From the NCBI RefSeq assembly GCF_006861795.1, contig NZ_VDGH01000004.1:62001-126000 (forward strand): DNA of 64,000 nt, given 5' to 3'. The position numbers and the translations under genes were made by a program. Shown here piece by piece: positions 7,051 to 25,568 of the stretch (positions within the stretch are counted from its first letter, which is position 1; every line of letters starts with the position of its first letter). Source of the stretch: Psychrobacillus lasiicapitis. GTDB taxonomy: Bacteria; Bacillota; Bacilli; Bacillales_A; Planococcaceae. Below the pieces are notes generated by a model. The model saw nothing but the letters and a program-made list of their open reading frames with translations, was not told the origin of the DNA and made no database searches.

Positions 7051-7222
7051 TATTGCGAATCGAATAAACTATAGATTAATAATATGAAATGTTTTATAAT
7101 AGTTAATTGTGGAAAAAATAATTACTATATGAAACTTTTTTTATGAATTATTTTGTCGTTTCTTGCAGGATTTTTCTTGTTTATCTCGAATTAATAAAGT
7201 AGCGAGTAAAGATGGTGAAATA

Positions 7223-9052
7223 ATGACAAATCGTATAGAAGAAGAAGTTATCGAACAAGTTAGGAATAACACAGATATTGTCGATGTTATTAGCGAATAT
7301 GTTCAACTAACGAAAAGAGGTAGAAATTATTTTGGTTTATGCCCTTTTCACGGAGAACAAACACCATCTTTTTCAGTAACGCAAGAGAAACAGATTTTTC
7401 ATTGTTTCGGGTGTGGTGCTGGTGGAAATGTAATTACATTTTTAATGGATATCGAAAATCTTTCGTTCCAAGATGCAGTAAGTAAACTTGGAAGCCGGAT
7501 TGGACTTTCGATTGAAGAGAGCTCCTCCAATCATTCAGAAGCAAAAGCACCTGTATCAAAAGAAGTAGCTATTATGAAAAAGGCGCATGAATTTGCGAGC
7601 GATTATTTTCATCATTTGTTACTTCATACGGAGGAAGGAGAAAATGCATTACATTACTTAGAAGAAAGAGGGTTTTCTACTGAAGTCATCGAAAAGTATA
7701 AAATCGGGTGGTCTTTACCTAATTGGGACGCCTTAACAACATTATTAGCAAGAAAAGGTATGGATTTACAAGAAATAGAGAAAACTGGGCTTATTATCCG
7801 AAAAGAAAATGAATTAAAGTATTTTGACCGATTTAGAGGAAGAATCATGTTTCCGGTTTTCGATGAAACGGGACAGGTAATAGCCTTTTCAGGGAGAATA
7901 CTGGAAAAAAGTGAAAATGAAGCAAAATATTTAAACAGTCCAGAATCACCAATATTCCAGAAAAGTCAGGTACTTTATAATCTAGATAAAGCTCGTCTAG
8001 AAATTCGTAAACAACGAAATGTAATAATCTTCGAAGGCTTCCTAGATGTCATTGCAGCATCTACTGCTGGAATTTCTAATGGAATTGCAACAATGGGGAC
8101 GGCTTTGACGTCTCAACATATAACAAAACTGAATAGATTGACATCAAACGTCACATTATGTTATGACGGGGATAAAGCTGGTATGGAAGCAGCTAAAAGA
8201 GCAGCAATTGCTTTGCAGGCTCAAAACATTCAAACCGAAGTAGCAATTATTCCGGATGCTATGGATCCAGATGATTATATTAAAAACTACGGAGAAGAAG
8301 CTTTTCGCGCAAAAATTATAGAAAAGCCCCATTCGTATTTATCCTTTATGATGATTGTTTCTAAACGTGATAAGAATTTTAACAATGAAAATGATACTTT
8401 ACAGTATATTCAAGAAATATTGGAAATACTGAGTGAGAGAAATTCTTCTGTAGAGCGTGATTTATACATTCGACAACTTTCACAAGAAACAAATGTTTCT
8501 GAGGAAGCAATCTATCAGCATTTGCGAAAGCTTCAAGGAAAAAAAGCAAAACAATTTAAAAGTGAACCAACCATACCTCTTCCAAACAATCAAGAATTGA
8601 CTAAAAAGAAGAGGACTATTTCAGCAGATGAGAGAGCAGAACGAATGCTACTTGCTCATATGTTGCACAATGCACAAATAATCGATATAGCCAGAAATAA
8701 TGCTGGAGAACAATGTTTTATAAGGGATGCATACGAGGCAGTTTATGTACGCTTAACCGGATTTTATGAACAGTATCCAGACGGAGATTATCAACGATTT
8801 TTGGAAGTATTAAATGATGCACAACTTAGAAATATAGTTATGGAAGCTGCGCTCTCAGAACGTGATCCAGAACATGAAACTGAGGAAGTCATGGACTGCT
8901 TGCGCCATATTCGAAAATACCGGATAGAGCAACAAATTGAGCGAAAGTTACATGAAGCAAAAGAAGCAGAGAAAATGACGGATATGACAAAAGCTTTGCA
9001 ACTCGCTCAAGAAGCTATTCAGTTAAAAAAGTCGTTAGCAACTTTTGAATAA
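7223..9052 (+). CDS. dnaG: DNA primase DnaG
   Basis: Primase of 609 residues synthesises RNA primers for replication. The N-terminal CHC2 zinc finger shows C40, H43, C61 and C64. The TOPRIM core has EGFLDVIAA and [13 protein letters not shown], and a DnaB-interacting C-terminal domain follows. ATG 7223 is chosen because the family begins MTNRIPEEVIE-like. The open frame extends 20 codons further upstream to 7163 without a credible ribosome binding site. sigA follows 28 bp later, as in the Bacillus dnaG-sigA operon. Confidence 0.96.
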
Positions 9053-9080
9053 ACATCCGGTAGTAAAAGGAGGATTTCTT

Positions 9081-10205
9081 ATGGCGGACAAGTCTGAACG
9101 TACAAAAGAAACGGATATTGAATTATCATTAGAAGAGGCAAAAAAACAATTAATCGAATTAGGTAAAAAAAATGGAGAGTTAACGTATCACGATATTGCG
9201 GAAAAACTCGCTCATTTTGAATTGGAATCGGATCAGATTGAAGAATTTATCGATCATCTAGAAGGCAAAGAAATTGAACTTAGCCGTAAAGATGGAGATG
9301 AAGAAGATTTAGATCGTTTAATGAAAGGGAAAGAAGAAACTTTCGATTTAAATGATTTAAGTGTGCCGCCTGGTGTGAAGATTAATGACCCTGTTCGTAT
9401 GTATTTAAAGGAAATCGGACGTGTAGACCTTTTGAAAGCGTCTGAAGAAATTGCGCTTGCAGAAAGAATAGAACAAGGGGATGAAGAAGCTAGAAAACGT
9501 CTAGCAGAAGCAAACCTTCGTTTAGTTGTAAGTATTGCAAAGCGTTATGTAGGTCGCGGAATGCTATTCTTAGATTTAATCCAAGAAGGAAATATGGGAC
9601 TTATCAAAGCAGTAGAGAAGTTTGATCACCGTAAAGGGTTCAAATTTAGTACGTATGCTACTTGGTGGATTAGACAAGCTATTACTCGTGCAATCGCAGA
9701 CCAAGCCCGTACGATACGTATCCCGGTGCATATGGTGGAAACGATTAATAAATTAATTCGTGTACAAAGACAATTATTACAAGACTTGGGCCGTGAACCT
9801 TCTCCAGAAGAAATTGGAGAAGAAATGGATTTGCCTCCAGAAAAGGTTCGTGAAATCCTAAAAATTGCACAAGAACCGGTTTCTTTGGAAACACCTATTG
9901 GAGAAGAAGATGACTCTCATTTAGGCGATTTTATCGAAGATGCGGATGCACAATCCCCTTCAGATCATGCTGCATATGAATTATTAAAAGAACAATTAGA
10001 AGATGTTTTAGATACTTTAACAGACCGAGAAGAAAATGTACTACGTCTTCGCTTCGGGTTAGATGATGGCCGTACGAGAACACTGGAAGAAGTAGGTAAA
10101 GTGTTTGGTGTCACACGCGAGCGTATTCGTCAAATTGAAGCGAAAGCACTACGTAAACTTCGTCATCCTTCTCGCAGCAAGCGTCTAAAGGATTTCTTAG
10201 AATAA
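9081..10205 (+). CDS. sigA: Primary sigma factor SigA (RpoD)
   Basis: Housekeeping sigma-70 of 374 residues. Regions visible in order are 1.1 at the N-terminus, 1.2 ([13 protein letters not shown]), 2.1-2.4 ([48 protein letters not shown]), 3 and 4.2 ([25 protein letters not shown]). AGGAGG at 9069-9074 fixes ATG 9081. Length and motifs are standard. It closes the dnaG operon and is followed by a terminator. Confidence 0.98.
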
Positions 10206-11137: not shown

Positions 11138-11167
11138 TTGAAATTGAAAACCCTTTCAGATTATAAT
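11138..11167 (+). promoter_or_regulatory. Sigma-A promoter of the kdgK-uxuB operon
   Basis: TTGAAA (11138-11143) and TATAAT (11162-11167) are separated by 18 bp. The stretch from 10891 to 11137 before it holds no gene that I see. Confidence 0.75.
11145..11158 (+). promoter_or_regulatory. Candidate cre site (CcpA catabolite repression)
   Basis: TGAAAACCCTTTCA matches the cre consensus TGWNANCGNTNWCA at all positions but one (C for the central G). It lies between -35 and -10, where CcpA binding would block RNA polymerase. Confidence 0.7.
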
Positions 11168-11172
11168 CTATA

Positions 11173-11197
11173 TAAACCGATTTACTAAACCGGTTTA
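11173..11197 (+). promoter_or_regulatory. Tandem operators for a LacI-family repressor
   Basis: TAAACCGATTTA (11173-11184) and the perfect palindrome TAAACCGGTTTA (11186-11197) repeat at 13-bp spacing just after the -10 box. The central CG and palindromic form suit LacI-family binding, and the local candidate is the regulator at 15928-16953. Confidence 0.7.
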
Positions 11198-11276
11198 TAA
11201 ACAAACATATACATATTTATTACTAATTTAGTTGTTAACTAGAGTAGAAAAAGTTCTGTTCATGTGAAAGGAGTAT

Positions 11277-12239
11277 ATGATTTTGGTTTCGAATTTTGGT
11301 GTTTTCACACTAGGGGATGCTCTGATTACATTTAATCCATCTGATACTGGGCCTCTAAGATATGTTTCAACTTTCTCACGAAAAGTGGGAGGTGCTGAAT
11401 TGAACTTTGCAATCGGTTGCGCACGCTTAGGACTTAGTTCGAAGTGGATGAGCCGATTAGGTGGGGATGAATTCGGTCGAGTAATTTATAATTTTGCACG
11501 TGGTGAAGGAATTGATGTTTCGGAAGTGAAGCTTATGGATGGTTATCCTACTTCTTTAAACTTTAAAGAAATTAGGGAAGATGGTTCCGGAAAAACATTT
11601 TACTACCGTTATCAATCACCCATTTTAACAATGGAACCAAGCGATATTACAGAAGCAGTACTTAAAGATGTGGATCTTGTTCATTTAACAGGCGTTTTCT
11701 TAGCAATAGATCCAAAGAATCTTGATATTACGATGCAAGTGTTAAAGCTTGCAAAGAAAAATAACATTCCGGTTTCATTTGACCCAAATATTCGGTTGAA
11801 GCTCTGGACGATAGAAGAAGCAAAAGCTGCGTATATGAAAGTTTTTCCCTATGTTGATATTTTACTAACCGGTAAAGATGAAATTGAGTTGATACATGGA
11901 GATTCTTCGAACGAATCGTTAGAGGAATTAGCAGAAGAATTCAAAATCGCTCATCTGGTTATTAAAGATGGTGGAAACGGTGCGAAAGTATTTATAAACG
12001 GCCAATGGCATGAAAAAGAAGCATTTAAAGTACAGCCAATTGATACGGTCGGTGCGGGTGACGGCTTTGATGCAGGTTATGTTTATTCTTATCTACATAA
12101 TTATTCTCCACTAGAGAGCTTACAATTTGCCAATGGAGTAGGGGCACTTGTTACAACAGTTTCAGGTGACAATGAAGGACTTCCTGAACTCGATGAAGTA
12201 TTTGCTTTTATTCGAAATGAAAAAATTATTGAGAGATGA
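11277..12239 (+). CDS. kdgK: 2-keto-3-deoxygluconate kinase (PfkB family)
   Basis: Ribokinase-fold sugar kinase of about 320 residues, predicted to phosphorylate KDG to KDPG. The PfkB signature DTVGAGDGF begins at D256, with catalytic D262 and the GAGD anion hole. The N-terminal half has GGAELNFAIGCARLG. ATG 11277 lies only three bases after AAAGGAG, and TTG 11283 in frame is better spaced, so the start may be two codons later. It is first in an operon with zinc dehydrogenase, kdgA, uxuA and uxuB. Substrate is inferred from context. Confidence 0.88.
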   Translation: MILVSNFGVFTLGDALITFNPSDTGPLRYVSTFSRKVGGAELNFAIGCARLGLSSKWMSRLGGDEFGRVIYNFARGEGIDVSEVKLMDGYPTSLNFKEIREDGSGKTFYYRYQSPILTMEPSDITEAVLKDVDLVHLTGVFLAIDPKNLDITMQVLKLAKKNNIPVSFDPNIRLKLWTIEEAKAAYMKVFPYVDILLTGKDEIELIHGDSSNESLEELAEEFKIAHLVIKDGGNGAKVFINGQWHEKEAFKVQPIDTVGAGDGFDAGYVYSYLHNYSPLESLQFANGVGALVTTVSGDNEGLPELDEVFAFIRNEKIIER

Positions 12240-12248
12240 GGGGAAATA

Positions 12249-13268
12249 ATGAAAGCGGTTCAAGTAAGAAAAGCTTATGACTTAGTCATTAATGAAATAG
12301 AAAAACCCCAGATTTCTTCTGATACAGATGTTCTCGTGCAAGTGAAACGTGTTGGCATTTGTGGTTCAGATATGCATATTTATCATGGAACGAACCCACT
12401 CGCAACTTTACCGAGAGTTGTCGGACACGAAGTAGCTGGTGAAGTAGTAGAAGTTGGAAATGCGGTAACGAAATTGAAGGTTGGAGATCACGTAGTAGTA
12501 GAGCCAATCAGGTACTGCGGCGAATGTTATGCATGCCGTAAAGGACGCCAAAATGTGTGTGAAAATCTATCCGTTTTTGGTGTGCACGAAGATGGTGGAA
12601 TGCGAGAATACTTTGTACTTCCAGAAAAACAGCTGCATGCCGTGGATTCTTCAATCGACTGGAACGAAATAGTAATGGCAGAACCATATTCAATCGGCGC
12701 ACAGGCTACTTGGAGAGGACAAGTGGAACAAGGGGATACAGTTCTTATTCAAGGTGCAGGACCAATTGGTATATGTATATTAAAATTTGCTAAATTGCGC
12801 GGCGCTACTGTAATGGTTTCTGACTTAAGTGAAGAACGATTGGCATTTGCTCGAGAAAATGGAGCAGATGTGACGGTGAATGCGGGAACTGAGAATGTGA
12901 AAGAGCAAGTGGCAAAATGGACAAATGATGAAGGTGTTAACAAAGTAATAGACGCTGTATGTTTACCGTCTACATTTGAACTCTCCGTAGATGTTGTTTC
13001 GCCTGCAGGAACTGTAGTTGTACTTGGTTTTGATGAAAGACCATCACAAATACCTCAGATGCCTATTACGAAAAAAGAAATAACAATTGTTGGATCTAGA
13101 TTACAAACTAATCAGTTTGCTCAAGTAGTTGAATTTTTAAATGACGGAAAACTTAGACATAACGGCTTAGTTACCCATACATTTGCATTAGCTGACGTCC
13201 AAGAAGCATTTACATTCGTTGAAAATAATCCGGATAAAGTTCGTAAAGCTGTCATTGTTTTTGACTAA
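12249..13268 (+). CDS. Zinc-dependent medium-chain dehydrogenase (L-gulonate/L-galactonate 5-dehydrogenase-like), branch 1
   Basis: MDR-family oxidoreductase of 339 residues. Catalytic zinc ligands are C38, H60 and E61. The structural zinc set is C90, C93, C96 and C104. The Rossmann motif [20 protein letters not shown] lies near residue 165. It resembles E. coli LgoD/RspB-type enzymes that oxidise hexonates at C5. It sits between kdgK and kdgA and upstream of uxuA-uxuB. I infer oxidation of L-gulonate to D-fructuronate, the UxuB substrate. An L-idonate or other polyol substrate cannot be excluded from sequence. A paralogue lies at 21331-22344. Confidence 0.8.
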
Positions 13269-13282
13269 GGAGGTTCCTACAG

Positions 13283-13903
13283 ATGAAAAAACATGAAATA
13301 TTAAACCAACTAACCGAATCCACAGTAGTTGCTGTTATTAGAGGGGAAAGTGCGGAAGAAGCCGTACAACTTACTAAAGCAGCAGTAGATGGGGGCATTC
13401 GAGCAATTGAGTTAACGTATACAACACCACAGGTACAAAAAGTGTTTGAAGAATTGCATAACGCAGATGCGCTTTTAGGTGCAGGAACGGTTCTTGATCC
13501 AGAGACCGCAAGACATGCAATCTTATACGGTGCCAAATTTGTTGTAAGCCCTCATTTCAATGCAGAAGTCGCAACTGTTTGTAATCGATATGGAATTCCT
13601 TATTTACCAGGTTGTATGACAATTAGAGAAATGGTACTTGCATTAGAAGCTGGCTGTGACATATTAAAACTTTTCCCTGCCAACAATTTCAGTCCATCTT
13701 TCATTAAGTCAGTTAAAGGTCCACTTCCACATGTACAAATTATGCCAACAGGTGGGATAAACGCTGGGAATATGAAGGAATGGATCGATGCTGGGGCAGT
13801 AGCAGTTGGAGTAGGTAGTGATTTGAACAAAGCTTATAAAACAGGTGGCTACGATGCTGTTGTAGAGGCTAGCAAAAAGTATATAGAAGCTAGTACAAAC
13901 TAA
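13283..13903 (+). CDS. kdgA: KDPG (2-keto-3-deoxy-6-phosphogluconate) aldolase
   Basis: Class I aldolase of 206 residues, which cleaves KDPG to pyruvate and glyceraldehyde 3-phosphate. The general base glutamate is E43 (AIELTYTTP). The Schiff-base lysine is K129 in DILKLFPAN. The phosphate-binding end is PTGGINAGNMKEWIDAGAVAVGVGSDL. It starts at ATG 13283 after AAGGAGG and overlaps nothing. It completes the lower part of the pathway with kdgK. Confidence 0.94.
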   Translation: MKKHEILNQLTESTVVAVIRGESAEEAVQLTKAAVDGGIRAIELTYTTPQVQKVFEELHNADALLGAGTVLDPETARHAILYGAKFVVSPHFNAEVATVCNRYGIPYLPGCMTIREMVLALEAGCDILKLFPANNFSPSFIKSVKGPLPHVQIMPTGGINAGNMKEWIDAGAVAVGVGSDLNKAYKTGGYDAVVEASKKYIEASTN

Positions 13904-13921
13904 GAAGGAGTGGTAGTTAAG

Positions 13922-14998
13922 ATGAATATTACATTTCGCTGGTATGGTAGAGACAATGACACAGTAACACTCGATCAAGTAAAACAAATTCCAGGCACAA
14001 AAGGGATTGTATGGGCACTTCATCAAAAGCCTGTTGGAGAAGTTTGGGAAAAAGATGAGATTAAATCGGAAATCGATTATATCCACTCATTCGGTTTTCA
14101 TGCCGACGTTGTGGAAAGTGTCAACGTTCATGAAGCGATTAAATTAGGTAATAGTGAACGAGATCAATATATTGAGAACTATAAAGAAACGATTCGTAAT
14201 CTTAGTGAATTTGGCGTTAAAGTCATTTGCTATAATTTCATGCCAATTTTCGACTGGACGCGTACAGAAATGTTCCATCCATTGGAAGATGGCTCTACAG
14301 CTTTGTTTTTTGAAAAATCGAAAGTGGAAAATTTAGATCCACAAGAGCTTGTGAAAACAGTGAGTGAGGCATCTGACTTAACTTTACCTGGTTGGGAACC
14401 AGAAAAAATGGCTCGCATTGCCGAATTGTTTGAAGCTTATAAAGAAGTAGATGAAGAAAAGCTTTGGGAAAATCTTGCGTACTTCTTAAACGCAATATTG
14501 CCGGTTGCCGAATCAGTAGGTATCAAAATGGCTATTCATCCGGATGATCCTCCGTATTCAATTTTCGGACTTCCAAGAATTATTACTGGTGAATCAAGCT
14601 ATGAAAAGCTAATCGCAATTTCTGATTCTGCTGCAAACGGCTTCACCATGTGTACTGGTTCAATGGGTGCAAATCCAGATAATGATATGGTTCAAGTAGC
14701 TAGAAAATATGCTTATCGTTCACCTTTCTCTCATATCCGTAATGTGAAAATTTCAGATAATGGAGACTTTGTAGAAACGTCTCACTACACAAGTGATGGC
14801 TCAATAGATGTAAAAGGTGTAGTACAAGAGCTACATAAACAAAACTACGATGGCTATGTAAGACCAGACCATGGACGTCATATTTGGGGAGAAGTTTGTC
14901 GCCCAGGATACGGGTTATATGACCGTGGATTAGGGATTATGTACTTACTTGGTTTATGGGATGCATATGAAGCGAACAAGGTGGGGGAGTCCCAATGA
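13922..14998 (+). CDS. uxuA: Mannonate dehydratase UxuA
   Basis: Dehydratase of 358 residues converting D-mannonate to 2-keto-3-deoxygluconate in a TIM barrel that needs a divalent metal. It starts MNITFRWYGRDNDTVTLDQVKQIPG and carries KMAIHPDDPP, CTGSMGANPDND and VRPDHGRHIWGE, all typical of UxuA. ATG 13922 is placed 11 nt after AAGGAG. GTG 13910 in frame overlaps that ribosome binding site. Its stop overlaps the next start as ATGA, so uxuB is translationally coupled. Confidence 0.95.
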   Translation: MNITFRWYGRDNDTVTLDQVKQIPGTKGIVWALHQKPVGEVWEKDEIKSEIDYIHSFGFHADVVESVNVHEAIKLGNSERDQYIENYKETIRNLSEFGVKVICYNFMPIFDWTRTEMFHPLEDGSTALFFEKSKVENLDPQELVKTVSEASDLTLPGWEPEKMARIAELFEAYKEVDEEKLWENLAYFLNAILPVAESVGIKMAIHPDDPPYSIFGLPRIITGESSYEKLIAISDSAANGFTMCTGSMGANPDNDMVQVARKYAYRSPFSHIRNVKISDNGDFVETSHYTSDGSIDVKGVVQELHKQNYDGYVRPDHGRHIWGEVCRPGYGLYDRGLGIMYLLGLWDAYEANKVGESQ

Positions 14999-15831
14999 TT
15001 CCAATACATGAAAATTTAAAAGACCGTGTAGCAGTTATTACTGGTGGCAGTGGTGTTTTATGTTCAGAAATGGCGCGCGAACTTGCGCGCCAAGGCGTGA
15101 AAGTAGCCGTTTTAAATAGAACTGCTGAAAAAGGGCAAGAAGTAGTTGCTGATATAGTGGTAGCTGGTGGCTCTGCTATTGCTTTACAGGCCGATGTGCT
15201 TGATCGAATTTCTCTAGAGAAAGCAAAAGAAGAAACATTAAAGGCTTTTGGACGAATTGACATGCTTATTAATGGAGCGGGTGGAAATCATCCAGATGCC
15301 ATTACAGACGGCGAAATTTTTGAGGAAGAAACAGAGGGAAAATCTTTTTTTGACCTAGAGGAAACAGGATTTTCTACTGTATTCGCAACGAATTTCACGG
15401 GAACGTTCCTGGCAAGCCAAGTGTTTGGAAAAGAATTATTGAAATCGACATCTCCAGTTATTATTAATCTGTCATCCATGAGTTCTTATGCACCGATGAC
15501 AAAGGTACCTGCTTATAGTGCGGCAAAAGCATCGATCAATAATTTTACCATGTGGATGGCAGTTCATTTTGCCGAAACAGGATTAAGAGTCAATGCAATT
15601 GCTCCAGGATTTTTCTTAACAACACAAAATAGAAATTTACTCTTGGATGAAGAAGGAAACTATACAGCAAGATCCTCTAAAATTATAGCTGGGACACCGA
15701 TGAAACGATTTGGTAAACCAATAGATTTATTAGGAACTTTACTCTATCTTGTAGACGAAACATGTTCCGGATTTGTCACTGGAACTACTATTCCAGTGGA
15801 TGGCGGATTTATGGCTTATTCTGGTGTATAA
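14995..15831 (+). CDS. uxuB: D-mannonate oxidoreductase, SDR type (UxuB/YjmF-like)
   Basis: Short-chain dehydrogenase of 278 residues, predicted to reduce D-fructuronate to D-mannonate with NAD(P)H. The Rossmann motif is TGGSGVLCSEMA near residue 18. The catalytic set is S (NLSSMSS), then YSAAK. The C-terminus PVDGGFMAYSGV is typical. It matches the Bacillus YjmF type of fructuronate reductase, not the long-chain E. coli UxuB. It is the last gene of the first operon and overlaps uxuA by 4 bp. Confidence 0.88.
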   Translation: MIPIHENLKDRVAVITGGSGVLCSEMARELARQGVKVAVLNRTAEKGQEVVADIVVAGGSAIALQADVLDRISLEKAKEETLKAFGRIDMLINGAGGNHPDAITDGEIFEEETEGKSFFDLEETGFSTVFATNFTGTFLASQVFGKELLKSTSPVIINLSSMSSYAPMTKVPAYSAAKASINNFTMWMAVHFAETGLRVNAIAPGFFLTTQNRNLLLDEEGNYTARSSKIIAGTPMKRFGKPIDLLGTLLYLVDETCSGFVTGTTIPVDGGFMAYSGV

Positions 15832-15927
15832 TTTTCAAGTGGATAGAGCCTTAAAGAACTTTTCTCATATAAAGTATTTAAAGGCAGTCTAAGCAATAAA
15901 AGAGAATAGTAAATGGGGTTCTGAAAA

Positions 15928-16953
15928 TTGAAACATATTACAATAGCAGATGTAGCAGAGCATGCAAAAGTATCTAAAAGTACCGTCTCTCAATATTTAA
16001 ATAAGCGGTACGAGTATATGAGTGAACAAACACGTAAGAGAATTGAAACTACTATTGAAGAATTGAATTATATTCCTAACAGTGTAGCGAGAAGCTTAAA
16101 GCAAAAATCGACCTTCACTGTTGGGGTAATAGTAGCTAATATTTTGCACTCATTTTCTACGCAAGTAATTCGAGCAATTGAAAACTATTTTCATGAAAAC
16201 GATTTTCATATTATCGTATGTAATGCTGATGATGAACCAAAAAAGGAAAGAAAGTATATTGAAATGTTACTTGCTAAACAAGTAGATGGCTTTATCATTT
16301 TTCCTACAGGCGGAAATCTTGATTTATATGAAAGTATAAAGAAGCAACATATACCAATTGTTTTCATGGATAGAAAGATAGACGGTATGAATATTGCCAC
16401 GGTCATGCTAGATAATGAAATGGCAACCTCGCTTGCGATTGATCGTTTCGTTGAAAGCGGTTTCGATAGAATTGCAATTATTACAATGTCTATTATTCGG
16501 AATATTAGCCCTCGGGTGGAACGTATTGAAGGGTATAAAAAAGCACTTAGTCGACATGGATTGCAGGTAAACCCAGCTTATATTAAAACGGCTGATGTAC
16601 ATGATATTCAGCAAGTAATCCATGAACTTTTTATAACCGAAAAACCACCAGAAGCAATTATTGCAGGGAATGACATTGTACTAGCAGCTTTGTTGAAATA
16701 TATGAAAGAAAATAATTTAAAAATACCAGACGATGTTGCGGTTATTGGGATTGATGAAGTACAATTTGCAAGTTTCTTTTCGCCACCCGTTACTACTATT
16801 TCACAGCCTGCGGTAGAAATGGCGAATAGGACGGTAAAATTATTATTAGATCAAATAAATAACAAAGTTAACACAAATGAAACAGGTGTCGTCAGATTAC
16901 AACCTAGTTTAATAAAAAGAGAATCATGTTCACGTATAGATAAATCGTTTTAG
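15928..16953 (+). CDS. kdgR: LacI-family transcriptional regulator (KdgR-like)
   Basis: This 341-residue regulator has an N-terminal LacI helix-turn-helix (ITIADVAEHAKVSKSTVSQYLNKRYEYMSEQTRKRI) and a periplasmic-binding-protein-like sensor domain. It likely starts at TTG 15928 after GGGG at 15914. It lies between the uxu and uxa halves of the island, and it is the natural candidate to bind the TAAACCGGTTTA operators at 11173-11197. The inducer is probably KDG or a hexuronate intermediate, by analogy with B. subtilis KdgR. The symbol is by analogy. Confidence 0.82.
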   Translation: MKHITIADVAEHAKVSKSTVSQYLNKRYEYMSEQTRKRIETTIEELNYIPNSVARSLKQKSTFTVGVIVANILHSFSTQVIRAIENYFHENDFHIIVCNADDEPKKERKYIEMLLAKQVDGFIIFPTGGNLDLYESIKKQHIPIVFMDRKIDGMNIATVMLDNEMATSLAIDRFVESGFDRIAIITMSIIRNISPRVERIEGYKKALSRHGLQVNPAYIKTADVHDIQQVIHELFITEKPPEAIIAGNDIVLAALLKYMKENNLKIPDDVAVIGIDEVQFASFFSPPVTTISQPAVEMANRTVKLLLDQINNKVNTNETGVVRLQPSLIKRESCSRIDKSF

Positions 16954-16987
16954 TTAAAAATCATTCAAATGGTAAGGGGCAAAATAT

Positions 16988-18241
16988 ATGTTTTCTAAAG
17001 ATAAACGTGCTGTGCTTATTCTATTATTTTTAGCAGGAGTTATAAACTATTTAGATAGATCGGCTCTTTCTATTGCAGCACCATATATTAAAGATGATTT
17101 AACATTAACTGCTACGCAAATGGGGATTATTTTTAGTAGTTTCTCTGTTGGGTATGCTATCTTTAACTTTTTAGGTGGAGTTGCATCTGATAAATTCGGT
17201 GCAAAAATGACATTGCTCGTAGCAATGATTGTTTGGTCACTTTTCAGTGGTGCTATTGCACTTGCAGTTGGTTTTGTAAGTTTAATCGTTATTCGTATTT
17301 TGTTTGGTATGGGAGAAGGTCCGCTTTCTGCGACGATTAATAAAATGGTAAACAACTGGTTCCCAGCGGATCAACGGGCTACTGCAGTTGGTTTAACTAA
17401 TAGTGGAACTCCACTCGGTGGAGCTATTGCAGGTCCTATTGTTGGATTTATCGCTATTTCGTACGGTTGGAGAGTTTCATTCGTTATTATCATGTTAATC
17501 GGACTTATTTGGGCATTTTTCTGGTGGAAATTTGCTAAAGAAAAGCCAGCAGCAAAAGCGAAGGAAAAAGAAATAAAAGAAGTAAAAGAAATTGCTGCTA
17601 CTACAGTGAGAAAAGTGCCACTTACATTTTATTTAAAACGTCGCACAATATTGTTTACTGCTTTTGCATTCTTTGCTTATAACTATGTATTGTTTTTCTT
17701 TTTAACATGGTTCCCAAGCTATTTAATCGATGCACGTGGTTTAAGTGTAGAAGACATGAGTATTATTACGGTTATCCCTTGGATTGTCGGTTTTATCGGT
17801 CTTGCAGCAGGTGGATTTGTTTCCGATCTATTCTTCAAAAAGTTTGCTGGTAAAGGCGTTCTTTTTGCACGTAAAGCTGTCTTAGTCCCTTGTTTGTTCG
17901 TCTCTGCGGTATGTATTGGTTTTGCAGGGCTTGTTACTACAACGGTGGGGGCAGTTACCTTGGTTGCTCTTTCGGTATTCTTCCTATACTTAACGGGAGC
18001 AATTTACTGGGCAGTTGTACAAGATGTTGTTGACCAAAGCAATGTTGGTTCTGTGGGAGGATTCATGCACTTCTTAGCGAACACAGCTGGTATCATTGGA
18101 CCAACATTAACAGGATATCTAATCGACACTACTGGTACATATACAGCAGCATTCTTATTAGCTGGTGGGTTAGCAGTATTTGCATCTATTGCGGTAATCT
18201 TCTTTGTTAAGCCAATCATGAAAAAGGCTGCTGTTGCGTAA
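16988..18241 (+). CDS. MFS hexonate/hexuronate transporter (ACS family, ExuT/GudP-like)
   Basis: Transporter of 417 residues with 12 predicted transmembrane segments. It carries ACS-family hallmarks: LDRSALSIAAPYIKDDL near residue 20, GVASDKFGAK in loop 2-3, FGMGEGPLSATINKMVNNWFP and a charged central loop around residue 190. Members import hexuronates, galactonate, glucarate or related acids with protons. By context it imports the acid that feeds this pathway. ATG 16988 follows AAGGGGC. It is followed by a terminator, so uxaA may need its own promoter or read-through. Confidence 0.85.
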   Translation: MFSKDKRAVLILLFLAGVINYLDRSALSIAAPYIKDDLTLTATQMGIIFSSFSVGYAIFNFLGGVASDKFGAKMTLLVAMIVWSLFSGAIALAVGFVSLIVIRILFGMGEGPLSATINKMVNNWFPADQRATAVGLTNSGTPLGGAIAGPIVGFIAISYGWRVSFVIIMLIGLIWAFFWWKFAKEKPAAKAKEKEIKEVKEIAATTVRKVPLTFYLKRRTILFTAFAFFAYNYVLFFFLTWFPSYLIDARGLSVEDMSIITVIPWIVGFIGLAAGGFVSDLFFKKFAGKGVLFARKAVLVPCLFVSAVCIGFAGLVTTTVGAVTLVALSVFFLYLTGAIYWAVVQDVVDQSNVGSVGGFMHFLANTAGIIGPTLTGYLIDTTGTYTAAFLLAGGLAVFASIAVIFFVKPIMKKAAVA

Positions 18242-18250
18242 TAACTTTTC

Positions 18251-18284
18251 AAAGGAACAGCGATCAAGCTGTTCCTTTTCTTTA
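18251..18284 (+). terminator. Terminator between the MFS gene and uxaA
   Basis: AAGGAACAGC and GCTGTTCCTT form a 10-bp perfect stem with a 6-nt loop, followed by TTCTTT. Confidence 0.8.
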
Positions 18285-18318
18285 ATACAAAATACAAGTG
18301 AAAGAGGTATGCTTTAAT

Positions 18319-19830
18319 ATGACTGTTAACCAATCTATCATCCAAATACATCCTTCTGACAATGTGTGGATTGCGCTAAGAGATTTTGAAAAAGGGGAAT
18401 GTATCGAAAAAGAACAGGTGAAAATCACACTTCAAGAGAATGTTCTTCGAGGACACAAAATAGCAGTAAGTCCGATAAAAAAGGGAGAAAATATTCTCAA
18501 GTATGGTTTTCCGATAGGGCATGCTACAAAAGATATCGCAATCGGTGAATTTGTTCACTCGCATAATGTAAAGACAAATTTAGAAGGTGAATTGAATTAT
18601 TCATATAAACCAAAAAAGAGCAGTTCAATCGATAATCATAATCCTTCAACAGAGACACCTACGTTTCTGGGATATAAACGTGAAAACGGGGATGTTGGGG
18701 TAAGAAATGAATTATGGCTCATTAATACAGTTGGTTGTATTAATAAAGTTGCTGAAAACTTAGCGAAAATGGGTAACAACGTGCTAAAAGCATCGAATTT
18801 CGATGGTGTGCAGTACTTCGCGCATCCATACGGCTGCTCTCAGTTAGGGGATGACTTAGAATATACACAAAAAATATTAGCAAATTTAATCCATCATCCG
18901 AATGCCGGAGGAGTAGTAGTACTTGGACTCGGTTGTGAAAATAATTATATTGATTTGTTTAAAGAAGCAATCGGAGAATATAACCCAAACCGAGTAAAGT
19001 TTATGAGTGTTCAAGCGGAAGAAGATGAAATGGAAAAAGGCCTTGAATTAATGCAAGAGGTATTTGACTATGTAACTTCATTTGAACGAGAGGAAGTTCC
19101 TGTTTCCGCCCTAAGAATTGGACTTAAGTGTGGTGGAAGTGATGGACTTTCTGGTATTACAGCTAATCCATTATTAGGGTCTTTTTCTGACCGCCTGATT
19201 AGCTATGGTGGTTCTACTGCATTAACGGAAGTACCTGAAATGTTCGGTGCGGAAACCATTTTAATGGAACGTGCAAGAGATGAAGAAACATTTCAGGACA
19301 TCGTTCATCTTATCAATGATTTCAAAAACTATTTCATAAAATACGACCAACCAGTTTATGAAAATCCATCTCCTGGAAACAAAGAGGGTGGAATTACTAC
19401 ACTAGAAGAAAAATCATTAGGCTGCGTACAAAAAGGCGGATTTTCTACCGTACAAGATGTGATTCCTTATGGCTCTCGTATAAATAAGGACGGCCTCACC
19501 TTGATCCAAGGACCAGGAAATGACTTGGTATCGGTAACAGCGCTTGCAACATCAGGATGTCAAATTGTTCTTTTTACAACAGGAAGAGGAACTCCATTTG
19601 GGGGCCCAACACCAACTGTGAAAATTTCTACTAACACACCTTTAGCAGAGAAAAAGAAAAACTGGATTGATTTTAACGCAGGTAAGCTTGTAGAAGACGC
19701 TTCGATGGAACAAATGACAGATGCATTTTTCGACTATATTGTCGATTTGGCATCTGGAAAGAAATTAACAAACAATGAAGTATTCGGATTCAAAGAAATT
19801 GCCATTTTCAAAGACGGAGTCACTATGTAA
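18319..19830 (+). CDS. uxaA: Altronate dehydratase UxaA
   Basis: Enzyme of 503 residues that dehydrates D-altronate to 2-keto-3-deoxygluconate. It has an N-terminal SAF-like domain (about residues 1-90) and a long C-terminal altronate/galactarate dehydratase domain with YGCSQLGDD, GLGCENN, LKCGGSDGLSGITANP and TGRGTPFGGPTPTVKISTN. The cysteines in these motifs fit the iron site of the family. ATG 18319 is preferred. GTG 18298 is in frame without a good ribosome binding site. uxaB follows 12 bp later. Confidence 0.93.
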   Translation: MTVNQSIIQIHPSDNVWIALRDFEKGECIEKEQVKITLQENVLRGHKIAVSPIKKGENILKYGFPIGHATKDIAIGEFVHSHNVKTNLEGELNYSYKPKKSSSIDNHNPSTETPTFLGYKRENGDVGVRNELWLINTVGCINKVAENLAKMGNNVLKASNFDGVQYFAHPYGCSQLGDDLEYTQKILANLIHHPNAGGVVVLGLGCENNYIDLFKEAIGEYNPNRVKFMSVQAEEDEMEKGLELMQEVFDYVTSFEREEVPVSALRIGLKCGGSDGLSGITANPLLGSFSDRLISYGGSTALTEVPEMFGAETILMERARDEETFQDIVHLINDFKNYFIKYDQPVYENPSPGNKEGGITTLEEKSLGCVQKGGFSTVQDVIPYGSRINKDGLTLIQGPGNDLVSVTALATSGCQIVLFTTGRGTPFGGPTPTVKISTNTPLAEKKKNWIDFNAGKLVEDASMEQMTDAFFDYIVDLASGKKLTNNEVFGFKEIAIFKDGVTM

Positions 19831-19842
19831 GGGGGCAAACAG

Positions 19843-21327
19843 ATGAATATACTGCCTGATTTAAATCTAGCAACTTATAAAGAGTTAACGAGTCAATCAG
19901 TTAAAAGGGAATATCCAAAACGAGTGTTGCAAATAGGCGATGGAAACTTTATTCGTGGGTTTGTAGATTGGATGATTTATGAATTAAATAGAAAAACAGA
20001 CTTTCAAGGAAGTATTGTTTCGATGCAAGCGACACCTAGAGGAAAAACGGTCCCAAAACTTCAAAAACAAAATGGTTTGTTTACTTTGCTATTAAGAGGT
20101 ATTCAAGATGGGGAAGAAGTGAATGAAAGACATGTAGTAGATTCGATTGCGCAAGCGATTAATCCATATGAAGACTGGGCAGAAGCATTAAAGGTAGCGG
20201 AGTTAGACGAGGTAGAGTTTTTATTTTCTAATACGACAGAAGCAGGGATTCAATATGAAAAGGAGACATTTGTAAAAGAAGTTTCTCCTATGTCATTTCC
20301 TGCAAAAGTGGTTTCGCTTCTTTACCATCGTTATAACCATTTTCAAGGAGCTGTAAATAAAGGATGGATTATTATCCCGTGTGAGCTCATTGAAAATAAC
20401 GGGGACCAGTTAAAAAATATTTGCTTGAAGATTGCAGATGACTGGGAGCTTCCTGCTGACTTTACTAATTGGATGAACTCGGCTTGTACTTTTTGTAATA
20501 CACTTGTAGATCGAATCGTACCTGGTTATCCAAAACAGGAAGATACATTACTATTTGAACAATTTGGCTATAAGGATGTCCTGTTAACGGTTGGCGAACC
20601 ATATCACCTCTTTGTTATAGATGGACCAGATTTTATACAACAGAAACTTTCTTTTAAAGAAGCTGGTTTAAATGTTCAATTTGACAAGATAGAGACTTAT
20701 CGAGAATTAAAGGTGAAGCTACTTAATGCACCGCATACGATGCTAGCTGCTATTGGATTACTATTAGAAATTGAAAGTGTAAAAGAAGGTATGGAAAATC
20801 CTTTGGTGTCTTCCTTTATTCAAAAAACCTTAAAAGAAGAAATCAGAGAAACTTTACCGCCAATTGGAAAAGATAAAGCTCTTCCTTATATGGAACAAGT
20901 ATTTGATCGGTTTGCGAACCCAACGATCCATCATCGTTTAGCGGATATTAGTTTAAATAGTTATGCTAAATTTAAAGCAAGAATATGGCCAAGTTTATAT
21001 ACATATTATACTGAATTTGGTTACCCACCCACAAGATTAGTATTTGCGTTTGCAGCGCTGCTCCAATACTTTGCAGGGGTAAAAACCACTAGTAAATATG
21101 AAGTGAAAGATGATCAGAATGTTATCCAAAAGTTTCAAGCATTTATTAGTGTACCAACTCCTTCGTTAGAGGAAATGGCAAAATTTGTTGAGTCTATTAT
21201 AAAAGAAGATTTTCTACAAACAAACGAAGACATGGAGAACATATCTTTAGCTGTAGCAAAAGAATGGCAGTTTATCCGTGAAGTAGGAATGAAAGTAGCA
21301 TTAGAAAAAATCGAAGATGGAGTGTGA
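19843..21327 (+). CDS. uxaB: Tagaturonate reductase (altronate oxidoreductase) UxaB
   Basis: Long-chain polyol-dehydrogenase family protein of 494 residues, reducing D-tagaturonate to D-altronate with NADH. The N-terminal nucleotide site is VLQIGDGNFIRGFVDWMIYELN. The active-site region is KVKLLNAPHTMLAAIG with the conserved lysine-asparagine-histidine arrangement. AAGGGGGC precedes ATG 19843. It pairs with uxaA on one side and with a zinc dehydrogenase 3 bp downstream on the other. Confidence 0.92.
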   Translation: MNILPDLNLATYKELTSQSVKREYPKRVLQIGDGNFIRGFVDWMIYELNRKTDFQGSIVSMQATPRGKTVPKLQKQNGLFTLLLRGIQDGEEVNERHVVDSIAQAINPYEDWAEALKVAELDEVEFLFSNTTEAGIQYEKETFVKEVSPMSFPAKVVSLLYHRYNHFQGAVNKGWIIIPCELIENNGDQLKNICLKIADDWELPADFTNWMNSACTFCNTLVDRIVPGYPKQEDTLLFEQFGYKDVLLTVGEPYHLFVIDGPDFIQQKLSFKEAGLNVQFDKIETYRELKVKLLNAPHTMLAAIGLLLEIESVKEGMENPLVSSFIQKTLKEEIRETLPPIGKDKALPYMEQVFDRFANPTIHHRLADISLNSYAKFKARIWPSLYTYYTEFGYPPTRLVFAFAALLQYFAGVKTTSKYEVKDDQNVIQKFQAFISVPTPSLEEMAKFVESIIKEDFLQTNEDMENISLAVAKEWQFIREVGMKVALEKIEDGV

Positions 21328-21330
21328 CTT

Positions 21331-22344
21331 ATGAAAGCAATCACATGTACAGAACCTGGAAAAATGGATGAAATTACATTAGATAAACCGGAAAACCTTG
21401 CAAATGGAGAAGTATTAGTTGCGATAAAACGAGTTGGTATTTGTGGTACGGATATACATGCGTTTGGTGGCAACCAACCTTTTTTTAGTTATCCACGAGT
21501 ATTAGGGCATGAACTATCAGGAGTGGTTGAAGCTATATCAAATAATGTAGAAAACGTGCAAGTTGGAGATACAGTAACGATTATTCCATATTTACATTGT
21601 GGGAAATGCTTAGCATGTACTATCGGTAAAACAAATTGTTGTACCGAGATGCAAGTGTTAGGTGTGCATGTGGATGGAGGAATGGCTGAATATTTGAAAG
21701 TTCCTGCTAGTCATGTGTTTGCGGTTAACGAATTATCCTTAGATGACGCAGCCATGGTTGAACCTTTGAGTATTGGAGCACATGCAGTTCGAAGAGCAGC
21801 TATAAAAGAAGGGGAAACAGTATTAATCATTGGTGCAGGTCCGATCGGGCTAGGTGCCGCTCGTTTTGCAAAATTACAAGGAGCAAAAACGATCATGATG
21901 GACATTAGTGAAGAGCGTTTACAATTCTCCAAGGAATGGGCAGACTGTGACTTAACGGTAACTGCCTCTGAGAACGCAATCGATCAATTGAAAGAAGTAA
22001 ACAATGGGCCCCTACCTTCAATTGTAATGGATGCAACTGGCAATAAACAATCGATGACGAACGCATTTAACTATGTGAATCATGGAGGAAAACTAGTTTA
22101 TGTGGGGCTTGTCAAAGATACAATTACATTCTTCGATCCAGATTTCCATGCAAAAGAACTAACCCTTCTTGGAAGTCGTAATGCAACCAAAGAAGACTTC
22201 GAATATGTAATCAATTGCTTACAAAAAGGCCAGGTTAAATCTAGTTATGTGACAAATAAAATCACCTTCGATGAAGTAAATGCTTATTTCCAAGCTGGAA
22301 ATTTCCGAACAAACAAAACATTAATCACCGTTACGGAATCTTAA
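21331..22344 (+). CDS. Zinc-dependent medium-chain dehydrogenase (L-galactonate 5-dehydrogenase/LgoD-like), branch 2
   Basis: Paralogue of the dehydrogenase at 12249-13268, with 337 residues and zinc ligands at the same positions: C38, H60, E61 and structural C90, C93, C96, C104. The Rossmann motif is IGAGPIGLGAARFAKLQGA. It is the last gene after uxaA-uxaB, starting 3 bp past the uxaB stop. I infer oxidation of L-galactonate to D-tagaturonate, the UxaB substrate. The family resemblance is visible in sequence, and the exact substrate is inference from the pairing. Confidence 0.8.
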   Translation: MKAITCTEPGKMDEITLDKPENLANGEVLVAIKRVGICGTDIHAFGGNQPFFSYPRVLGHELSGVVEAISNNVENVQVGDTVTIIPYLHCGKCLACTIGKTNCCTEMQVLGVHVDGGMAEYLKVPASHVFAVNELSLDDAAMVEPLSIGAHAVRRAAIKEGETVLIIGAGPIGLGAARFAKLQGAKTIMMDISEERLQFSKEWADCDLTVTASENAIDQLKEVNNGPLPSIVMDATGNKQSMTNAFNYVNHGGKLVYVGLVKDTITFFDPDFHAKELTLLGSRNATKEDFEYVINCLQKGQVKSSYVTNKITFDEVNAYFQAGNFRTNKTLITVTES

Positions 22345-22386
22345 TGTATACACTGAATAACTTAACGAAAAGCAAGTAGAAATGGT

Positions 22387-22417
22387 GTCCTTATTACTTA
22401 TAAGGACGCTTTTTTTG
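22387..22417 (+). terminator. Terminator closing the catabolic island
   Basis: GTCCTTAT pairs with ATAAGGAC (22387-22407) and is followed by GCTTTTTTT. Confidence 0.88.
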
Positions 22418-22492: not shown

Positions 22493-22670
22493 CACATTAT
22501 AGAGAAACTGCGCGGTAAAGATCTCAAGATGTTCGCCATGATTTCCGCTCCAGGCGGACGCTTTCCGTGGGGCGAGCGGTGAGCCTCCTCCTCCGCTAAC
22601 GCTACGTGCGGGGTCTCACCTATCTCGCTAATCCCACAGGAGTCACCGCCTTGCACTCCAATCAATAGAA
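22493..22670 (+). repeat. Dispersed GC-rich intergenic repeat, copy A
   Basis: An element of about 175 bp with GC-rich blocks such as GGCGGACGCTTTCCGTGGGG and CAGGAGTCACCGCC. It aligns along its length with the reverse complement of copy B (22780-22959), including the ends CACATTATAGAGAAACTGCG and CACATTATAGGGAAACTGCG. The CTTTCCGCGGG...GCAGGAGTC architecture recalls repeats I know from Bacillaceae intergenic DNA. Short frames here are not credible genes. Confidence 0.7.
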
Positions 22671-22779
22671 CCTACTAATAATCACTATAAAGTATGTCTT
22701 ATTCTATTAATCATAGGTTTTCCCTATAGAAAAAACAATGTAGCACTAGATCTAGTGCATTATGTCTTAGTAATTAGCA

Positions 22780-22959
22780 AACTCTACTGGATTGTAGCGA
22801 AAGGGTGGCGACTCCAGCGGGAACAGCACGAGCTGAAAGCCCCGCAGGAGCGTGAGCGACGAGGAGATTGAAGCCGTGCCCGCGGAAAGCGTCCACCCTG
22901 TAGCGAAAATCACGGCGGATACCTAATAAAGCCTTACCACGCAGTTTCCCTATAATGTG
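22780..22959 (-). repeat. Dispersed GC-rich intergenic repeat, copy B (inverted)
   Basis: This is an inverted, diverged copy of the element at 22493-22670. GACGCTTTCC and GGTGGCGACTCC-type blocks are shared on opposite strands. Between the copies lie about 110 AT-rich bases containing the palindrome GCACTAGATCTAGTGC (22743-22758). The rest of the gap, 22960-23125, holds only the likely promoter region of the acyl-CoA dehydrogenase gene. Confidence 0.7.
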
Positions 22960-24401: not shown

Positions 24402-24776
24402 ATGAAAAAGAATCCAATTATTCCGTTTTTATTAATTATGGGATTTGGTATTGGTTTAATTTTCTTCTTATCAATTCAAGGTGTAAATAACAAAGAAGAA
24501 ATTGCTGCTACAGAAGAAGCTGCTGAAGGCGGTGCAGCTGAAGGAGAAGCGACTGCTGGTGAATTTGATCCAGCTGAGTTTGCACAAGGGAAATGTATTA
24601 GCTGTCACGGTGCCAATTTTGAAGGACAAGGCAATTTCCCATCATTAGTAGGGACTGCTCTTTCAGAAGATGAGGTTAAAGACGTATTAGCTAATGGTAG
24701 AGGTGCAATGCCAGGTGGTTTAGTACCAGCTGAAAACATCGATGCTATGGCTGCATGGGTTAAATCTTTAGAATAG
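24402..24776 (+). CDS. cccA: Membrane-anchored cytochrome c (c550-type)
   Basis: Protein of 124 residues with an uncleaved-looking N-terminal membrane helix (residues 8-28), an acidic Ala-Glu linker (about 33-58) and one heme-binding site CISCH near residue 65. The likely axial methionine is in GAMPGGL. The domain faces outside the membrane and shuttles electrons to a terminal oxidase. In B. subtilis cccA lies directly after sigA. Here the catabolic island and the acyl-CoA dehydrogenase intervene. Confidence 0.92.
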   Translation: MKKNPIIPFLLIMGFGIGLIFFLSIQGVNNKEEIAATEEAAEGGAAEGEATAGEFDPAEFAQGKCISCHGANFEGQGNFPSLVGTALSEDEVKDVLANGRGAMPGGLVPAENIDAMAAWVKSLE

Positions 24777-24789
24777 TATCATATTTTTT

Positions 24790-24833
24790 TCAAAAAGACC
24801 TTTGATTCTACAAAAGAATCGAGGTCTTTTTTA
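24790..24833 (+). terminator. Terminator after cccA
   Basis: AAAAGACC-TTGATTCT pairs with AGAATC-GAGGTCTTTT around ACAAA and is followed by a T-run. Confidence 0.85.
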
Positions 24834-24872
24834 CTTTTTGATATAATGAGATGTAGAAGAGGTGTTTACAAT

Positions 24873-25565
24873 ATGAATGCAAAAAATTTATCGGAAAGAC
24901 TAAAAATAGTTGCTTCCTTTGTAGAAAAAAATAAAACTTTGGCGGACATCGGAAGTGATCATGCTTATTTGCCTTGTTACTTAGTACATACAGGTATTAT
25001 TAAAAAAGGAATTGCAGGCGAAGTGGTAAAAGGCCCATTTGAATCTGCGCAAAAGCAAGTGAGAAGTGAAGGTTTAGAACAACAAATAGATGTACGTTTT
25101 GGAAATGGACTAGAAGTAATTAAAGAGTCAGATCATGTCCAAACAATTACAATAGCTGGTATGGGTGGTCCGCTTATTGCCTCTATTTTAGAAGCTGGAA
25201 AAGACAAACTTGATGCGGTAGAAACGTTAATCTTACAGCCGAATATTCATGCAAAGGCAATACGTGAATGGGCGATCAAAGAAAACTGGAAAATTACTAA
25301 CGAAACTATACTAGAAGAGCATGATAAAATTTATGAAATTGTTGTTCTTCAAAAAGGGAATATGGAGCTTACTGATCAAGAACTACTTGTTGGACCTTAT
25401 TTGATGAAAGAAAAATCAACTGTTTACCATAAAAAATGGTCCAATGAATTGCGGGAATGGCAACGAATCATGGATCAGTTAGATAAAACCGCACTGTCCC
25501 AGGAAGTACAAAATAAGAAAGAAGAACTCGAAAGAAAAATAGCTTTAGTAGAGGAGTCGTTATAA
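24873..25565 (+). CDS. trmK: tRNA (adenine(22)-N(1))-methyltransferase TrmK
   Basis: SAM-dependent methyltransferase of 230 residues forming m1A22 in tRNA. The SAM-binding loop is LADIGSDHAYLPCYLV near residue 22, followed by ITIAGMGGPLIASIL, the family's catalytic-site motif. A C-terminal coiled-coil helix (about 185-230) is typical. ATG 24873 follows AGAGGTG. Nine further in-frame codons upstream lack a ribosome binding site. Its stop lies 3 bp before yqfO, as in Bacillus. Confidence 0.94.
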   Translation: MNAKNLSERLKIVASFVEKNKTLADIGSDHAYLPCYLVHTGIIKKGIAGEVVKGPFESAQKQVRSEGLEQQIDVRFGNGLEVIKESDHVQTITIAGMGGPLIASILEAGKDKLDAVETLILQPNIHAKAIREWAIKENWKITNETILEEHDKIYEIVVLQKGNMELTDQELLVGPYLMKEKSTVYHKKWSNELREWQRIMDQLDKTALSQEVQNKKEELERKIALVEESL

Positions 25566-25568
25566 TAA

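Follow-up and report, generated by a model that had tools for sequence, protein, structure and literature searches.

In a 64,000-nucleotide stretch of the Psychrobacillus lasiicapitis genome (assembly GCF_006861795.1, contig NZ_VDGH01000004.1, positions 62,001 to 126,000; hereafter the window), we describe a ten-gene cluster that is best explained as a catabolic system for two L-hexonates, L-gulonate and L-galactonate (probability about 0.8, judged from sequence comparisons). The cluster spans 11277-22344 and consists of ten intact open reading frames (ORFs), all on the plus strand, with intergenic spacing of -4 to 96 bp. It encodes two zinc dehydrogenases, ADH1 and ADH2, located as a first-pass annotation of this DNA had reported, one beside uxuA-uxuB and the other beginning 3 bp past uxaB. 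The same annotation had proposed a pathway for these two acids, and our analysis supports that prediction: the genome contains no match to the isomerases UxaC, KduI, or UxaE, and ADH2 carries LgoD-type residues. The proposal also fits the occurrence of ADH2 relatives beside L-galactose dehydrogenase-like genes and of the arrangement TRAP-ADH1-uxuA (TRAP, tripartite ATP-independent periplasmic transporter) in 33 of 80 related loci.

In the predicted pathway, a major facilitator superfamily (MFS) carrier would import both acids. Because this carrier is ExuT-like (78.0% identity to the carrier of the Bacillus spizizenii operon, presumably ExuT, and 28.3% to LgoT), we can only infer its hexonate specificity. 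ADH1 would oxidise L-gulonate at C5 to D-fructuronate, which UxuB would reduce to D-mannonate and UxuA would dehydrate to 2-keto-3-deoxygluconate (KDG). In the second branch, ADH2 would oxidise L-galactonate at C5 to D-tagaturonate, UxaB would form D-altronate, and UxaA would dehydrate it to KDG; the substrates and cofactors of both dehydrogenases are predictions. In each branch, the oxidation at C5 and the reduction after it would together epimerise that carbon, and a dehydration would follow. KdgK and KdgA, common to both, would then convert KDG to pyruvate and glyceraldehyde 3-phosphate.

The gene content accords with this scheme (Table 1). As first annotated, the mannonate and altronate branches are complete and accompanied by KDG kinase and 2-keto-3-deoxy-6-phosphogluconate (KDPG) aldolase; all ten frames are open and their families were matched. 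Scores exceeded the curated cut-offs for UxuA (TIGR00695, 532 bits vs 199.6), UxuB (PRK08277, 427 vs 281), UxaB (PRK03643, 561 vs 359), and KdgA (PRK06552, 282 vs 238). UxaA was assigned from its Pfam GD_AH domains and 54.2% identity to Escherichia coli UxaA, its sole NCBIfam match being galactarate dehydratase at 286 bits against a cut-off of 731. The top NCBIfam model for KdgK was KDG/2-keto-3-deoxygalactonate (KDGal) kinase, with a score under the cut-off, and none of the kinase, ADH1, and ADH2 reached an equivalog cut-off. For uxuA and uxaA, ATG starts at 13922 and 18319 were chosen in place of the GTG starts of the ORF list (13910 and 18298). The window thus encodes together the enzyme set of the Haemophilus influenzae type (dehydrogenase, UxuB, UxuA, KdgK, and KdgA), and the uxaA-uxaB-ADH2 linkage is present as well.

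Assignment of the two zinc dehydrogenases

ADH1 and ADH2 share 35.8% identity. Among the proteins compared, ADH2 is closest to E. coli LgoD (43.4%) and ADH1 to RspB (41.0%), the cross pairs reaching 35.1 and 35.6%. LgoD is labelled L-galactonate oxidoreductase in RefSeq, and its biochemistry was reportedly described by Kuivanen and Richard in 2014. A 55-row tree placed RspB with the ADH1 group (Shimodaira-Hasegawa-like approximate likelihood ratio test, SH-aLRT, 99) and LgoD with the ADH2 group (SH-aLRT 90, not starred, on a long branch). We also compared residues at 34 group-separating positions, each at least 90% fixed within 20 ADH1 rows (leaving out the GntP-linked clade described below) and within 24 ADH2 rows and differing between the groups. 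At these positions LgoD matches ADH2 27 times and ADH1 once; the corresponding counts are 29 and 0 for a Catenovulum adriaticum protein and 32 and 0 for one from Paenibacillus cellulositrophicus. A Cetobacterium protein has 24 ADH1 and 3 ADH2 letters, and the controls favour neither side (IdnD, 3 ADH1 and 7 ADH2; Tdh, 6 and 6). These results support the prediction that ADH2 is an LgoD-type L-galactonate 5-dehydrogenase.

The first-pass annotation had pointed to equal zinc-ligand numbering as a mark of the pair. The equality is real, with C38, H60, E61, C90, C93, C96, and C104 occupied alike in both proteins, but we rejected it as a sign of a pair and as evidence on substrate, because the cysteine spacing is identical in RspB (C37, 89, 92, 95, 103) and LgoD (C40, 92, 95, 98, 106). 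A recent duplication inside the cluster was also rejected, given the identity between the two proteins and their grouping with different E. coli proteins.

Relatives of ADH2 provide further context. Three genomes, one of the same genus (G123) and two others (G388 and G361), carry lacI-kdgK-TRAP-uxaA-uxaB-ADH2-kdgA with no uxu genes in the stretch. The transporter was recognised in G123 and G361 by a Pfam match to DctP and in all three by BLAST matches to DctP and DctM; the G123 binding protein best matches 4ovt (E 1.1e-90) and 4o8m (E 1.4e-86). In G362 and G547, ADH2 occurs with uxaB, an amidohydrolase, and an aldo/keto reductase, with uxaA also present in G362, whose reductase best matches the L-galactose dehydrogenase 9w6y (E 2.5e-102). 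C. adriaticum has a mannitol-dehydrogenase family protein, ADH2, an amidohydrolase, and an aldo/keto reductase, with an altronate dehydratase on the opposite strand; P. cellulositrophicus has the amidohydrolase, aldo/keto reductase, and ADH2 with no uxaB nearby. A class sample of 398 Bacilli genomes contains 43 with ADH2, and most of these have no ADH2 gene within 10 kb of UxaB.

Operons at 4086-8915 of L142 and 7404-11827 of L143 contain amidohydrolase, uxaB, aldo/keto reductase, and ADH2 genes, with uxaA in L142 only. They are predicted from their gene content to encode an L-galactose pathway in Bacilli. L-Galactose as the starting point in P. lasiicapitis was considered and rejected. The best match in its genome to the G362 reductase is just 33% identical (E 2.3e-21), and no SGL lactonase was found there in a search that did not extend to amidohydrolase-type lactonases; the route therefore seems to begin at the acid.

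ADH1 is the orthologue of B. subtilis-group YjmD (75% to the B. spizizenii protein), its closest named relative being that of Psychrobacillus sp. NEAU-3TGS (97%). We surveyed the named loci of ADH1 relatives, using the best 80 of 150 confirmed for every count out of 80. uxuA is present in 62 loci and both dehydrogenases in 19. A TRAP transporter (DctP and DctM, recognised by BLAST with the proteins of the Planococcus locus L025) directly precedes ADH1 in 35, and 33 of those also have uxuA. The Pfam-checked L025 operon reads lacI-kdgK-SIS-yjmC-DctP-DctQ-DctM-ADH1-kdgA-uxuA-uxuB; its binding protein best matches 4pc9 (E 3.8e-91), with the L-gulonate-binding protein of H. influenzae, 4pbq, in fourth place (E 7.1e-41). 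Cetobacterium somerae likewise combines TRAP, an ADH1-like protein with 50.9% identity to ADH1, uxuA, and a mannitol-dehydrogenase family protein. Since the L-gulonate and L-galactonate modules are found apart in relatives, the window looks like a fusion of the two, sharing kdgK, kdgA, regulator, and carrier.

The Planococcus operon includes two further genes. One is a 6-phospho-3-hexuloisomerase-like SIS gene (L025 5543-6091, above the TIGR03127 cut-off), and the other is yjmC (L025 6030-7150), whose B. spizizenii copy scores above the cut-off of PRK15025, ureidoglycolate dehydrogenase.

Uronate isomerases and alternative readings

That UxaC is not encoded, as the window alone had suggested, was borne out by a search of the whole genome (4,488,252 bases in 28 contigs; completeness 100, contamination 4.19), which returned 0 matches. 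KduI and UxaE also had no match across the same 4.49 Mb, and these searches were positive for UxaC, KduI, and UxaE in 7, 6, and 1 of 14 control genomes. No enzyme for the isomerase step of the UxaC hexuronate pathway was therefore found in this genome. An ordinary glucuronate/galacturonate pathway, entered through an unrecognised uronate isomerase and with the dehydrogenases as accessories, is decidedly unlikely in our estimation. The ExuT-like carrier would suit it, as would the fact that the operon carrying these genes in the B. subtilis group begins with uxaC, and an isomerase of an unknown family would escape family searches. Such a pathway would nonetheless leave two adjacent, conserved dehydrogenases unexplained. 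Moreover, a TRAP cluster with uxaC, uxuA, and uxuB in a same-genus relative (G096) has no such dehydrogenase, and uxaC lies inside none of the 35 loci in which TRAP precedes ADH1.

We also considered that uxaC might have been lost from an exu operon of the B. subtilis type, leaving a decaying uronate locus. The B. spizizenii operon reads, in the order observed and with what we take to be the gene names, uxaC-yjmB-yjmC-yjmD-uxuA-uxuB-exuT-exuR-uxaB-uxaA. Kinship with these genes would favour such a loss, as would the presence of uxaC in 3 of 18 same-genus relatives (G096, G117, and G141) and its position beside both dehydrogenases in Fictibacillus enclensis (L044). Yet all ten genes of the window are open, and the 18-kb stretches round uxaC in the three relatives contain neither ADH1 nor ADH2, the G096 cluster reading TRAP-uxaC-uxuA-uxuB-kdgK-kdgA. 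The cluster without a nearby uxaC also recurs in Peribacillus, Viridibacillus, Scopulibacillus, and others, and we consider decay very improbable. Across the 80 ADH1 loci, uxaC lies within five (L032, L036, L040, L042, and L044).

The first-pass annotation had treated the lack of UxaC as a trait of the system, and this part did not hold. UxaC is present in 7 of 19 named genomes with both dehydrogenases (12 are without it) and in 31 of the 43 class-sample genomes that carry ADH2, and the B. subtilis-group orthologue of ADH1 shares an operon with uxaC. We thus rejected UxaC absence as a defining trait; it belongs to this genome and not to the system. UxaC was also detected in 9 of 29 further ADH1 genomes, the check across named genomes covering 48 of the 80 loci, many of them close relatives and of unstated completeness.

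A different pattern emerged at the operon level. Among 99 UxaB places in the 398 Bacilli genomes, UxaC lies within 10 kb of 30 and an ADH2-like gene (E up to 1e-85) within 10 kb of 11, and none has both. Three genomes (G356, G362, and G547) each have one UxaB near UxaC and one near ADH2. UxaC and ADH2 thus look like alternative entries at this level. In a family sample of 200 genomes, UxaC occurred in 28 and ADH2 (E up to 1e-90) in 12, with an overlap of 0 when compared by eye; as chance would give an overlap of 1.7, this zero says little alone.

Several observations weigh against an L-gulonate and L-galactonate pathway. As the 31 of 43 genomes indicate, UxaC and ADH2 are not exclusive at the genome level. 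ADH2 is found in 12 of 37 UxaB genomes without UxaC vs 28 of 55 with it, and neither gene is near 58 of the 99 UxaB places. The carrier is ExuT-like, and ExuT is the name given to hexuronate carriers. RspB holds only 14 of the 34 ADH1 letters (and 1 ADH2 letter), and ADH1 is tied to GulD, the proven L-gulonate dehydrogenase HI0053, by operon content only. Finally, in 14 of the 80 loci an ADH1-like gene is followed by a GntP permease with no uxuA (L066-L071, L073, L075, L076, L078-L080, L082, and L083), and the GntP-linked proteins differ from other ADH1 proteins at only five fixed positions (7 and 20 rows). Since L-gulonate and L-idonate differ solely at C2, ADH1 may accept both acids.

These GntP-linked loci bear on the proposal that the chief activity of ADH1 is that of an L-idonate 5-dehydrogenase, or that the enzyme oxidises hexonates broadly at C5, its branch then serving L-idonate in addition to or in place of L-gulonate. 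GntR is near in 12 of the 14 and an FGGY kinase in 3 (L066, L073, and L080), with Pfam matches to GntP in L069 and L076, to GntR in L076, and to the FGGY kinase in L066. Seven of the proteins were placed in the tree, where they group as a nested clade (SH-aLRT 100) that may have shifted to L-idonate. For ADH1 itself we find the proposal doubtful. Oxidation of L-idonate would give 5-keto-D-gluconate, a compound that UxuB and UxuA do not convert to KDG, and uxuA accompanies ADH1 in the 62 loci noted above. E. coli IdnD has only 3 of the 34 ADH1 residues. GntP also occurs alongside uxuA (L012 and L013) and is hence no marker of idonate; E. coli GntP is annotated as a fructuronate transporter.

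Predicted regulation and flanking DNA

In the proposed L-gulonate and L-galactonate system, LacI would act as a repressor on tandem operators just past the promoter, and a pathway inducer would release it. The predicted promoter tops the promoter-like sites of the scanned region, and its -35 box coincides with the beginning of the island as first annotated (11138); such sites are not enriched in that region (25 vs a shuffle mean of 39). Directly past the -10 box lie two palindromic, CG-centred predicted operators, TAAACCGATTTA and TAAACCGGTTTA. Of the 80 loci, the 56 that have the linked lacI all show sites with up to two mismatches ahead of cluster genes, and none of the 24 that lack it does. 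With up to one mismatch they occur in 53 of the 56, vs 0.2 in letter shuffles, and the 13-bp tandem is found in 37 of the 56; these loci are related and not independent. This co-occurrence ties the predicted operator to the linked LacI regulator. Allowing up to two mismatches across the entire window yielded 6 sites vs 4.06 expected, so a single site there carries no meaning. Peribacillus loci have a better operator copy at the position matching 16941-16952.

An AraC-type gene like that before uxaA in L024 and L016 is present in 10 of the 19 two-dehydrogenase loci, and none lies between carrier and uxaA in the window. Expression of the galactonate branch is therefore likely to rely on transcripts that start at the LacI-controlled promoter and continue into uxaA-uxaB-ADH2. 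Terminator-like hairpins, one of which stands between the first module and uxaA, are not clearly commoner than in shuffles (10 vs 8).

Table 1. Genes and predicted regulatory features of the cluster in the window.
Feature	Positions	Strand	Basis
Promoter-like site TTGAAA-18-TATAAT	11138-11167	+	consensus match, 11/12
Catabolite-responsive element (cre)-like box, 1 mismatch, between promoter hexamers	11145-11158		consensus match, not above chance in window
Predicted LacI operator 1, TAAACCGATTTA	11173-11184	.	site conservation across loci
Predicted LacI operator 2, TAAACCGGTTTA	11186-11197	.	13 bp from operator 1
kdgK, PfkB-family kinase, predicted KDG kinase	11277-12239	+	family search
ADH1, zinc dehydrogenase, B. 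subtilis-group YjmD orthologue, predicted L-gulonate 5-dehydrogenase	12249-13268	+	identity, tree, loci
kdgA, KDPG/2-keto-4-hydroxyglutarate (KHG) aldolase	13283-13903	+	family search
uxuA, D-mannonate dehydratase	13922-14998	+	family search
uxuB, short-chain dehydrogenase/reductase (SDR)-type D-mannonate oxidoreductase (fructuronate reductase)	14995-15831	+	family search
lacI, LacI-family regulator, predicted to control cluster	15928-16953	+	family search, operator-regulator linkage
Weak operator-like site TAAATCGTTTTA, 2 mismatches	16941-16952	.	before MFS gene
MFS transporter, ExuT-like	16988-18241	+	family search, identity
Terminator-like hairpin, between first module and uxaA	18251-18278	+	
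uxaA, D-altronate dehydratase	18319-19830	+	Pfam domains, identity
uxaB, tagaturonate reductase	19843-21327	+	family search
ADH2, zinc dehydrogenase, predicted LgoD-type L-galactonate 5-dehydrogenase	21331-22344	+	identity, tree, residues, loci
Terminator-like hairpin, past cluster end	22384-22410	+	

Judged by eye, the cluster lies between dnaG-sigA (7163-10205) and a cytochrome c/TrmK/YqfO group (24402-26687), which we take to be neighbours in B. subtilis; this suggests insertion into a conserved housekeeping region. Directly past the cluster, a 467-bp stretch (22493-22959) is bounded by 26-nucleotide inverted repeats (92% complementary) and contains inverted copies of GGCGGACGCTTTCCG in its interior. 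It appears to be a small mobile element without coding sequence, resembling a miniature inverted-repeat transposable element (MITE).

Relation to known systems

Both branches are known biochemistry, and what is new is their fusion in a Gram-positive, LacI-linked form without UxaC, together with the assignment of YjmD. Among the best matches listed from open-licence papers, we found no description of the fused cluster or of the function of YjmD. It is probable that ADH1/YjmD is the Gram-positive L-gulonate 5-dehydrogenase, that the 'hexuronate' operon of B. subtilis and those related to it are loci for both uronates and L-hexonates, and that Bacillales have assembled, split, and fused the L-gulonate and L-galactonate modules interchangeably, whether UxaC was included or not. 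With this assignment, YjmD of B. subtilis, a model organism, would gain a function open to experimental test, and the L-gulonate pathway known in H. influenzae would extend to Bacillales. Possession of UxuA, UxuB, UxaA, and UxaB is no proof of growth on glucuronate or galacturonate. Here, given the isomerase families searched, these enzymes could be fed by hexonates only, since UxaC, KduI, and UxaE are unmatched.

The cluster resembles the B. subtilis-group exu operon in ADH1, uxuA, uxuB, carrier, uxaA, and uxaB. Unlike that operon, it is without uxaC, yjmB, yjmC, and exuR, and has ADH2, kdgK, kdgA, and another LacI regulator.

The L-galactose/L-galactonate pathway of Luteolibacter (lguA-D) and Phocaeicola vulgatus (PMC12632266) shares with the altronate branch an L-galactonate 5-dehydrogenase, a D-tagaturonate reductase, and a D-altronate dehydratase. 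It differs in that P. lasiicapitis, with no close L-galactose dehydrogenase or SGL lactonase found, would start at the acid.

For the mannonate branch, the closest parallel is the L-gulonate pathway of H. influenzae, which comprises GulPQM, GulD, UxuB, UxuA, KdgK, and KdgA and which was shown by kinetics, knock-outs, expression, and labelling (PMC5788505). The mannonate-branch enzymes are the same, and TRAP, ADH1, and uxuA occur together in the 33 related loci. Unlike the H. influenzae system, the window has an MFS carrier in place of TRAP and a second branch. As a GulPQM-type TRAP transporter is not part of the cluster, we describe it as working like the H. influenzae pathway and do not file it as a member.

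For the altronate branch, the parallels are lgoD-lgoT with uxaA/uxaB in E. coli and the lgoD-uxaA-uxaB loci of Halomonas and Chromohalobacter (PMC5507952). There, as predicted here, an LgoD-type dehydrogenase feeds UxaB and UxaA. Compared with those loci, the window joins uxuA/uxuB to this branch in one cluster and relies on an ExuT-like carrier distant from LgoT.

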